Assembly (NCBI GenBank): GCA_947458455.1
Contig: CANGYJ010000002.1
Span: 310,001 to 374,000 of the forward strand
DNA: 64,000 nucleotides
Direction: 5' to 3'
Origin: Verrucomicrobiaceae bacterium
GTDB taxonomy: Bacteria; Verrucomicrobiota; Verrucomicrobiia; Verrucomicrobiales; Verrucomicrobiaceae
In this document: positions 17,354 to 19,600 of the stretch, in pieces
Layout: each line of letters starts with the position of its first letter
How positions within the stretch are numbered: position 1 is the first letter of the stretch
Program-made: the position numbers and the translations under genes
Notes under the pieces: model-generated
The model's input: the letters and a program-made list of their open reading frames with translations, nothing else
The model's database searches: none
Told to the model about the DNA's origin: nothing

Positions 17354-18670
17354 TCACTTCGCCGCCAGCGTCTTCTTCCATTCCTTGGGCGCACCAGGAA
17401 GGGTCTCGGCAAGGATGCGGCGGATGTGGCTGCGTTCGCTTTCGCCGAGGTAGGCGTAGCTGCCGGTTTGGACGTTGCCGTCGAGCACGTTCCAAAGGCG
17501 GGCGAGGATGGTCTGCTTCAGCGGTGCGGTGAGGTGCTGGAAGGTGAGGGAGTAGATCATGTAGCTGCAGCGATGCTTGAAGAGGCGGTTGAGGAGCTGG
17601 AAGTCCTTCAAACTGCGTCCATCGCTGCTCTGCGGAGCGCGTTTGACGAAGGCGGTCTGGAAGGCGGGATCGCCCTCGATGCCGCCCCCGGGCAAAGCGG
17701 CTTCGTCTTTGAAAAGCAGCGCGTCGAGCACATCCTCGGCGCAGTGATCGATGATGCGGCGGGCGGTGCCCACGGGCTCGGGTGTGATGGTCTCACCCAA
17801 CTCACGCTGGAGGCTCGTCTGCATGTGCATGGCCCGCAGAGAGGTGTGGTTGGCCTTGGTGAGGATGTTTTGCACGCTCGTCTGATGCTCGAGGATCATG
17901 AGCGCGACGATGTCGCTCGTTTTGCGTTTGTAGGGGGAGGTATCGAAGAGCTTTGCGAGGCTGGTGACGTTCGCACCGGCTTTGAAGTCGATGTCCACGC
18001 TCTGGTCCTTGTTCTCGATGGCGGTCACATTGCCGCGGTGGAGCACATCGCCATGCCTGCCGGTGACATACCAGCCGCCCCAGCGGTCGCTGAACGGCGT
18101 GGTGGTATCCACGACGGTGCTGCCCTGGCTCATGATGGGATGGCCTTCGGGGCCGGGAAAGACGGAGCGCACGAGCACGCCGGGCACCTCCGGGGTGAAG
18201 GGGCCGCCGTGGCAGCTCAGGCAGCTTTGATCCCGCTCAAAGTGCAGCGGCTTCTTCGGCTCGGTATCGGGATCGAGGAGGTAAAAGATGGGGCCGAGCT
18301 TCGGATCAATGGTGGAGATTTCCAGCGCTCCGCCGACGCTGTAGCCCACATAGGCGTTGTCGCCAAAATAGATGACGCGTGGGGTTCGTGGGCTGATGCG
18401 GTCGTTTTGCTTGCTGGTCTTGGAGAAGACCATGACCTGCGATTCAGGCGGGATACCGAATGCCTTCAGCACGCCCTGAAGCATGCTCCACGCATCGGTG
18501 CGGTCGATTTTGACCTTTCCCTCGGCCATGAGGCGCTCGAGGCGCTGCGCGGCATCGTTCGGCGCGGTGTCGGAGTAGTGGATGGGGGCGTTTTCGTATT
18601 CGTTTTCGGCCTGCGCGGCGGTGGCGAGCAGGCTGAGCGTGACGAGGCCGCGTGTCAGAAGCGTTTTCAT
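17354..18670 (-). CDS. Exported c-type heme protein in an NsrR operon
   Basis: This 438-residue protein has a signal peptide (MKTLLTRGLVTLSLLATAAQA) and a single heme c site, CLSCH (150-154). A His-rich and Met-containing C-terminal half with MILEHQTSVQNILTKANH could supply axial ligands. I do not recognise a named family; similar uncharacterised cytochrome-like proteins occur in Verrucomicrobia and Planctomycetes. Its ATG overlaps the stop of the upstream NsrR-type regulator by four bases, so the two are translationally coupled. The context suggests a periplasmic role in nitric oxide or nitrosative stress, by analogy with cytochrome c' and other NsrR targets; this is inference. Confidence 0.75.
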   Translation of the reverse strand: MKTLLTRGLVTLSLLATAAQAENEYENAPIHYSDTAPNDAAQRLERLMAEGKVKIDRTDAWSMLQGVLKAFGIPPESQVMVFSKTSKQNDRISPRTPRVIYFGDNAYVGYSVGGALEISTIDPKLGPIFYLLDPDTEPKKPLHFERDQSCLSCHGGPFTPEVPGVLVRSVFPGPEGHPIMSQGSTVVDTTTPFSDRWGGWYVTGRHGDVLHRGNVTAIENKDQSVDIDFKAGANVTSLAKLFDTSPYKRKTSDIVALMILEHQTSVQNILTKANHTSLRAMHMQTSLQRELGETITPEPVGTARRIIDHCAEDVLDALLFKDEAALPGGGIEGDPAFQTAFVKRAPQSSDGRSLKDFQLLNRLFKHRCSYMIYSLTFQHLTAPLKQTILARLWNVLDGNVQTGSYAYLGESERSHIRRILAETLPGAPKEWKKTLAAK

Positions 18671-19110
18671 GACGAGGAAGAGATCAAAAGGCGCTGCATG
18701 CGGGAGCCATCGGCCCCGGCGATGAGATCACGCAGCGTGTGGCGGTCCAGTGTTTCGTAGAAGGCGTTCACGGCCTGGGCGAGAGCGCCTTTGAGACGAC
18801 AAGAGCCGTTGAGGATGCAGGTGTTGTGCTCCTTGTCGAAGCACTCGACGAGGGGCGGCGTGCCTTCCGTGCGGCGCACGACCATGCCCACGCGGATGTC
18901 CTCCGGCTTCATCGCCAGCGAGACGCCACCGCCGCGTCCGCGACGTGTTTCGAGGTAGCCGAGCTTCGCCAGGTAGTTCACCACCTTCACGAGGTGATGC
19001 CGGGAGATGTCATAGGCCTCCGCCACCTCGCTGAGTGAAAAACTTTGGCCCTTCAGCGCGGCAAACATGAGCACGCGGAGGGAATAATCGGTGAAGAGGC
19101 TGAGTCGCAT
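18667..19110 (-). CDS. nsrR: Rrf2-family regulator, NsrR-type nitric oxide sensor
   Basis: From ATG 19110 the product is 147 residues, normal for Rrf2 regulators. The winged helix covers about residues 1-60 (FSLSEVAEAYDISRHHLVKV as recognition region). The cluster-binding pattern of NsrR is complete: D8 plus C90, C98 and C104, matching the Asp8 and three Cys ligands known for the [4Fe-4S] cluster of Streptomyces NsrR. The C-terminal AFYETLDRHTLRDL also matches the family. In NsrR the cluster reacts with nitric oxide and releases DNA. The longer upstream reading frame is only translated octamer repeat. It heads an operon with the heme protein at 17354. Confidence 0.88.
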   Translation of the reverse strand: MRLSLFTDYSLRVLMFAALKGQSFSLSEVAEAYDISRHHLVKVVNYLAKLGYLETRRGRGGGVSLAMKPEDIRVGMVVRRTEGTPPLVECFDKEHNTCILNGSCRLKGALAQAVNAFYETLDRHTLRDLIAGADGSRMQRLLISSSS

Positions 19111-19228
19111 GCCCCGGTTTACTCCCAGGCGACGGCTTAACTTGCACGCGCCGTGCATCTTTGATGAACTCACGCCAAACGAGGCGCAGTGGAGGGCAAG
19201 ATCGGGCGGGACGCGGGGCTCGGGGCGA

Positions 19229-19343
19229 TGGAGTAATGGAGTAATGGAGTGGTGGAGTAATGGAGTGGTGGAGTAATGGAGTGGTGGAGTAATGGAGTGG
19301 TGGAGTGGTGGAGTGGTGGAGTGGTGGAGTAATGGAGTGGTGG
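19229..19343. repeat. Octamer tandem array TGGAGTRR upstream of nsrR
   Basis: Fourteen consecutive 8-base units of TGGAGTAA or TGGAGTGG run from 19229 to 19340, followed by a partial unit. A small hairpin GGGCT-GCGG-AGCCC and then an inverted half array (CCAATACTCCACCACTCC) follow, up to 19384. This fills most of the 331-base gene-free stretch between nsrR (start 19110) and the terminator at 19387. Nothing else was recognised in that gap besides the expected nsrR promoter region. The unit is not a multiple of three and no gene crosses it. Confidence 0.9.
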
Positions 19344-19441: not shown

Positions 19442-19600
19442 TCAATGGTTGCAGGTCTTGCAGTCGGTGGTCTTTTTGCTGTCGCAGCAGGCGGAGGTGC
19501 CGGATTTGCAGCATTCTTTCTTCGGAGCGAACATGCAGGATTTGCAGCTCGAAAGGCTGAAGACGGCGGCGATGAGGGCGAGGGTGGCGAGTGATTTCAT
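19442..19600 (-). CDS. Small cysteine-rich lipoprotein
   Basis: The chosen start at ATG 19600 gives 52 residues with a signal peptide and lipobox (VFSLSSC, lipidated C19). The mature part carries seven further cysteines in pairs: C22, C30-C31, C38-C39, C47 and C50, followed by NH at the end. The family is not recognised. Dense paired cysteines in a lipid-anchored peptide suggest metal binding or thiol redox buffering at the cell envelope, which is inference. It is a single gene with its own terminator at 19387-19417. Confidence 0.75.
   Translation of the reverse strand: MKSLATLALIAAVFSLSSCKSCMFAPKKECCKSGTSACCDSKKTTDCKTCNH

Follow-up and report, generated by a model that had tools for sequence, protein, structure and literature searches.

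NsrR operons are well known. The published NsrR operator consensus is gATGyAT-N5-ATrCATc (PMC1274295), and the cluster of S. coelicolor NsrR is ligated by Asp8 and three cysteines (PMC5411485, PMC9338935). The locus described here lies in a window (the whole stretch of DNA analysed, 64,000 nucleotides) from the genome of a Verrucomicrobiaceae bacterium. It resembles the described NsrR regulon (PMC1274295) in having an Rrf2 regulator with Asp8 and three cysteines, a predicted operator of the form ATGCAY-N5-RTGCA in 23-bp geometry and, in relatives, globins among the predicted targets, encoded in the vicinity of nirK and nnrS. It differs in the identity of its predicted targets in the window's genome, an exported heme protein of an unnamed family and a diheme cytochrome c, and in that Hmp, NnrS and a NorB-type reductase were not found in that genome. 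In the open-access papers searched, neither NsrR regulons nor this heme protein were described for Verrucomicrobia or Planctomycetes.

The regulator and its operon

Two genes on the minus strand make up the locus: an nsrR-type Rrf2 repressor gene (18667-19110, 147 aa) and the gene of an exported mono-CxxCH protein of an unnamed family (17354-18670, 438 aa). The two genes overlap by 4 bp: ATGA (within TCATGA) contains both the stop of nsrR and the start of the heme-protein gene; such ATGA stop/start overlaps are the usual mark of translational coupling. The initial annotation, which had described a regulator overlapping the start of an exported 438-residue protein with one CLSCH site, was correct on each of these points.

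The regulator starts MRLSLFTDYSLR and belongs to the Rrf2 winged-helix fold (PF02082, E=1.6e-33, 116 bits against a cut-off of 30). Its best PDB match is S. coelicolor NsrR (5n07, E=8e-24), and in the alignment D8, C90, C98 and C104 fall on Asp8 and the three cysteines of 5n07. The same Asp8 and cysteines are retained in verrucomicrobial orthologues. All four ligands listed in the initial annotation are present, as opposed to the cluster-free regulator that it had named as evidence against itself. The NCBIfam NsrR equivalog (NF008240) is still the best-scoring model, at 118.3 bits, but does not reach its cut-off of 182; the RirA model scores nearly the same (112 bits), also below cut-off. The name NsrR thus rests on ligands, operator and context and not on the curated equivalog and, as judged from its sequence, the regulator is NsrR-type rather than a proteobacterial NsrR equivalog. 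The almost equal NCBIfam scores would also suit an iron or redox sensor of the RirA/IscR kind, with the heme protein as part of such a response. We regard this as very unlikely in view of the Asp8 and three cysteines as in NsrR, the NsrR geometry of the operator and a predicted regulon of globins near nirK and nnrS.

The predicted NsrR-type operator, AAGATGCACGGCGCGTGCAAGTT, is a 23-bp palindrome at 19139-19161 (minus strand), about 29-51 bp upstream of the nsrR start. Its spacing is that of the published consensus, from which G-ATGCAC/GTGCA-AG differs by single bases, and TAAACaTGCAY-N5-RTGCAaGTTTA precedes nsrR across the genus. A possible nsrR promoter, proposed with low confidence, would consist of TGCAAG (inside the operator), 18 nt and GTAAAC (19117-19146, minus strand); the pattern TGCAAG...GTAAA is kept across the genus, and no sigma-70 consensus match was found for it. 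We conclude that nsrR and the heme-protein gene form one operon under this predicted operator. Chance pairing is excluded, since the pair is kept in most of the genus and beyond and the window's genome has only two strong Rrf2 genes.

Two other elements lie upstream of nsrR. An ORF at 19442-19600 (minus strand) encodes a 52-residue Cys-rich, lipoprotein-like product (MKSLATLALIAAVFSLSSCKSCMF...DCKTCNH), which may bind metal; at least 12 related loci have a relative of it at this position. Between this ORF and nsrR, at 19227-19343, are seven copies of the 16-bp tandem repeat ATGGAGTGGTGGAGTA.

Predicted regulon and gene neighbourhoods

Operator scans were run on IUPAC patterns, with the reversed pattern as control. 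In the window's genome 19139-19161 is the only zero-mismatch site (control 0). The only other near match (1 mismatch) precedes the gene of a 264-aa diheme cytochrome c; its score of 31.8 is as high as those of the nsrR sites, compared with 0.07 control matches per 100 kb at score 14. Three matches with 2 mismatches in the same genome (C13, C14 and C15) were dropped, their targets not being consistent. An operator also stands upstream of the diheme cytochrome c in the nearest relative without NnrS (G014), and in four other genomes the gene of this cytochrome is a direct neighbour of the heme-protein gene, overlapping it in L075 and divergent from it in L078, L158 and G040. In G014 the heme-protein gene is preceded by the operator and by an nsrR match of just 75 residues (L030:2569-2793); this regulator gene may be truncated or misassembled.

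Heme protein and diheme cytochrome c are the predicted NsrR targets visible in the window's genome. This genome is 96% complete, and a search of it that covered NnrS, the NorB_cytochrome_c-like domain and full-length Hmp found none of these; the two truncated globins that it encodes are both without operator. With the heme protein and the cytochrome as predicted targets, and no NnrS, NorB-type reductase or full Hmp found, this context makes the strongest case for the heme protein being itself the active component.

A scan of 39 genomes placed the operator at the nsrR promoter and at one other recurrent position, with 0 matches to the reversed pattern. In relatives this second position falls in the intergenic stretch that separates the gene of a group III truncated globin (trHb3-like; best PDB match 2ig3, E=6.5e-13) from that of an exported YHS-globin fusion (PF01152, E=2e-18), and the genes nearby are nirK (TIGR02376 above cut-off), an FGE/SCO fusion and nnrS. 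The operator before trHb3 and YHS-globin near nirK/nnrS thus points to predicted control of NO genes, as expected of NsrR. The G049 locus carries nirK-nirV-sco-nnrS and, on the opposite strand, nsrR, YHS-globin, heme protein and trHb3; nnrS comes after a second heme-protein copy in G049. The exported fusion of a YHS-like N-terminal part (CPISGKPVDP...) with a truncated globin looks unusual (L139:3129-3839, L150:6511-7212, L159:6562-7158). Relatives have it behind an NsrR-type operator, and in G049 and G055 its gene neighbours nsrR and the heme-protein gene.

In Planctomycetes the gene order is rrf2-hmp-heme protein-qNor in L103 and L104, likewise in L106 without a qNor call, rrf2/hmp/heme protein in L091, heme protein-qNor in L090 and L096, and protoglobin / heme protein-rrf2 in L105. 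These neighbours were identified as flavohemoglobin (NF009805 above cut-off), quinol-type NO reductase (PF22085), Tll0287-like heme proteins and protoglobin. The adjoining Rrf2 proteins are of another subfamily (MLSxTxEYALR, CPLG...CPLH), and palindromes lie between the divergent genes (for example TTCAATTCTACATGTCAATGTGTAGAATTGAA in L103 and two GGATGT/ATATTGACATCC sites in L105). The heme protein shares with Hmp and the quinol NO reductase a regulatory neighbourhood and presumably a stress; it differs from them in its unrelated sequence and in being predicted to be exported and soluble. Hmp is cytosolic and qNor is a membrane protein. The clusters of L103, L104 and L106 encode, besides Hmp and the heme protein, an HPP-family protein and two exported heme proteins of the Tll0287-like kind (with qNor in L103 and L104); the rrf2-hmp interval there holds a nearly perfect palindrome of 32 bp.

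An Rrf2 gene lies within 2 kb of the heme-protein gene in 35 of the 67 testable loci, related species included (23/52 in Verrucomicrobiota and 12/15 in Planctomycetota). In 266 kb of comparison DNA Rrf2 genes occurred at two loci only, both themselves heme-protein loci. On the tree the linkage requires 12 changes; it is thus not the product of a single inherited event, and it is not found everywhere. Rrf2 is missing beside about half of the heme-protein loci in Verrucomicrobiota, and the operator was not found before those copies. The conserved nsrR linkage that the initial annotation had suggested looking for, and whose absence it had named as evidence against itself, was found in other genomes, including beside Hmp, quinol-type NO reductase, NnrS, truncated globins and protoglobin. 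From sequence comparison, a tie of the heme protein to NO through two different Rrf2 subfamilies in two phyla is well supported. So is the regulatory half of the initial annotation, by the predicted cluster ligands, the genus-wide operator and the linkage in relatives, and comparative genomics makes a regulatory link of the operon to NO highly probable.

Such neighbourhoods would also suit an electron-transfer or accessory (maturation or repair) protein for NirK, qNor or globins. Genes for qNor, NirK/NnrS or globins are adjacent in several genomes, and two further invariant histidines (see below) could make a bis-His heme. Yet the window's genome retains the heme protein under the predicted NsrR control though a search there for NnrS, NorB-type reductase and Hmp found none of them, and we consider an accessory role unlikely.

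Sequence and predicted structure of the heme protein

The N-terminus of the heme protein, read by eye, is a typical Sec signal, MKTLLTRGLVTLSLLATAAQA|EN (residues 1-21, 18608-18670, minus strand, cleavage at AQA|EN). The protein has one CxxCH, the heme c attachment site CLSCH at residues 150-154 (18209-18223, minus strand), whose C150, C153 and H154 do not vary among 102 homologues or within either clade of the family. Two other histidines are candidate axial or catalytic residues: His211 (18038-18040, minus strand), within DRWGGWYVTGxHGxxxHxGN, and His262 (17885-17887, minus strand). Among the homologues both show little or no variation, as does the motif RWGGWYVTG...H.GN; His211 is kept in 86/86 members of the NO-linked clade and 10/11 of the other, His262 in all members of both. 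About 45 residues, three histidines among them, are strongly invariant, which fits an enzyme better than a mere carrier.

Homologues were found in 34 of the 35 genomes searched in the genus group, in other families of the order and in Planctomycetota, and orthologues with one CxxCH occur both across the genus and in Planctomycetota; Brevifollis gellanilyticus and Lacipirellula limnantheis are among the species that encode the heme protein. Plasmid records yielded no relatives. Pfam, NCBIfam and PDB sequence and profile searches gave no family, and none of 55 homologues had a meaningful score against Pfam. The family is unnamed in these libraries. Its second clade keeps the CxxCH and both histidines, has one member in the window's genome (C9:135567-136739, L151) and showed no NO neighbours. 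A rhodanese-like gene adjoins some of its members in relatives (L152, L161, L167).

The AlphaFold model of the full protein (pLDDT 90.5, pTM 0.90) consists of two helices, five strands, the CxxCH helix and a mostly helical C-terminal half, with residues 1-20 disordered. Modelled alone, the N-terminal domain reached a pLDDT of only 75 against 90.5 for the full model, so the protein is probably not divisible at residue 250. Foldseek found no match at E 0.001 with either the full model or the N-terminal domain. For the C-terminal half VIA-align gave helical proteins (CNOT1, exportins) at Z up to 6.6; these matches look like widespread ways of packing helices and were set aside. For the N-terminal part, cytochrome P460 appeared in both VIA-align searches at Z 3.3-3.5, tied with unrelated proteins and at the tool's own noise level; the P460 entries were the only c-type cytochromes in the two lists.

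The cytochrome P460 fold is common to the gas-binding cytochromes c'-beta and has NO chemistry (PMC11928373). The heme protein shares with this group one c heme, an NO context and, in the model, five strands before the CxxCH helix, where the P460 fold has a five-stranded twisted sheet with such a helix. It differs in being twice as long, with a helical C-terminal half, in sequence and structure scores that are not significant, and in that no aligned crosslink lysine was seen in the sequence comparison: no motif like the GTVxVKE of P460, which holds its invariant crosslinking lysine, was seen, and Lys84, which is not invariant, stands in another strand context (VFSKTS). PF16694 (cytochrome P460) matched none of 55 members at E 10 and nothing in the window's genome, and the window protein has no Pfam match at E 1. 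An hhalign comparison with a PF16694-derived alignment gave a probability of 25%, and column-shuffled alignments that kept the CxxCH scored equally high. The Tll0287-like c-heme domain (DUF3365, PF11845) has in common with the heme protein the CLxCHG motif and its co-location in the Planctomycete clusters. PF11845 did not match the window protein and matched 3 of 55 members (best E 0.06); its hhalign score was above that of P460 but no better than shuffled columns keeping the CxxCH. As the shuffled controls score as high, we claim neither homology, and the possible resemblance to the P460/c'-beta fold is only a lead from the model. Two adjacent genuine cytochrome P460 genes (PF16694, E about 1e-26) do occur in a relative (G014:C63:61214-62350, L169).

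The single heme, the NO regulon context, the co-located Tll0287-like proteins in Planctomycetes and the weak structural resemblance to P460 (Z 3.3-3.5), whose fold occurs in gas-binding c'-beta (PMC11928373), would agree with a sensor of NO or redox state, or a signalling or NO-trapping protein that buffers NO non-catalytically as cytochromes c' do. We hold this to be unlikely, since the protein has no signalling output domain, a carrier would need neither so large a conserved surface motif (DRWGGWYVTG...H.GN) nor so long a helical C-terminal half, and the P460 resemblance lies within the tool's stated noise.

Proposed function

We propose that the heme protein is most likely a heme enzyme that consumes NO in the periplasm with electrons from cytochrome c, a reading to which we give a probability of about one half. 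Export, the CxxCH and the cytochrome linkage suggest that this heme c protein resides in the periplasm, has redox contact with cytochrome c and would remove NO. While NO is absent, the cluster-bearing repressor would occupy the operator and keep the operon off; NO would destroy the cluster and the operon would be expressed, as in known NsrR biology. The heme protein would then be exported and take one covalent heme c. In the periplasm NO may bind this heme at an open or readily opened site and be reduced (or oxidised), the small diheme cytochrome c serving as electron donor (or acceptor). We infer the NO binding, the redox chemistry including catalysis, the cytochrome as partner and the identity of the axial ligands. 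Of the proposal in the initial annotation, the coupling of an NsrR-type NO sensor to the heme protein is well supported by ligands, operator and linkage; its suggestion that the heme protein binds or reduces NO we carry forward as a reasonable proposal.

Several observations weigh against an enzyme. No fold or sequence relative with known NO chemistry was found, and two invariant histidines beside the CxxCH could give a six-coordinate bis-His heme suited to electron transfer only. The verrucomicrobial loci without adjacent Rrf2 or operator, and the sister clade without NO linkage, point the same way. On balance we nonetheless regard the heme protein, by its genomic context, as a strong candidate for an undescribed NO-handling enzyme. 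It is possible, though doubtful, that it represents a new enzyme class characteristic of Verrucomicrobiota and Planctomycetota, that of periplasmic NO reductases or NO oxidases with a single heme c, which would be fed by a diheme cytochrome c and replace Hmp and NorB where these are absent.

Verrucomicrobia and Planctomycetes are abundant in soils and waters, and their NO tolerance and removal are little described. Regulon membership shifts between close relatives, and the nsrR-heme protein pair stays. The unnamed, conserved family is a directly testable candidate for a missing periplasmic NO enzyme and may bear on the amounts of NO or N2O that they release.
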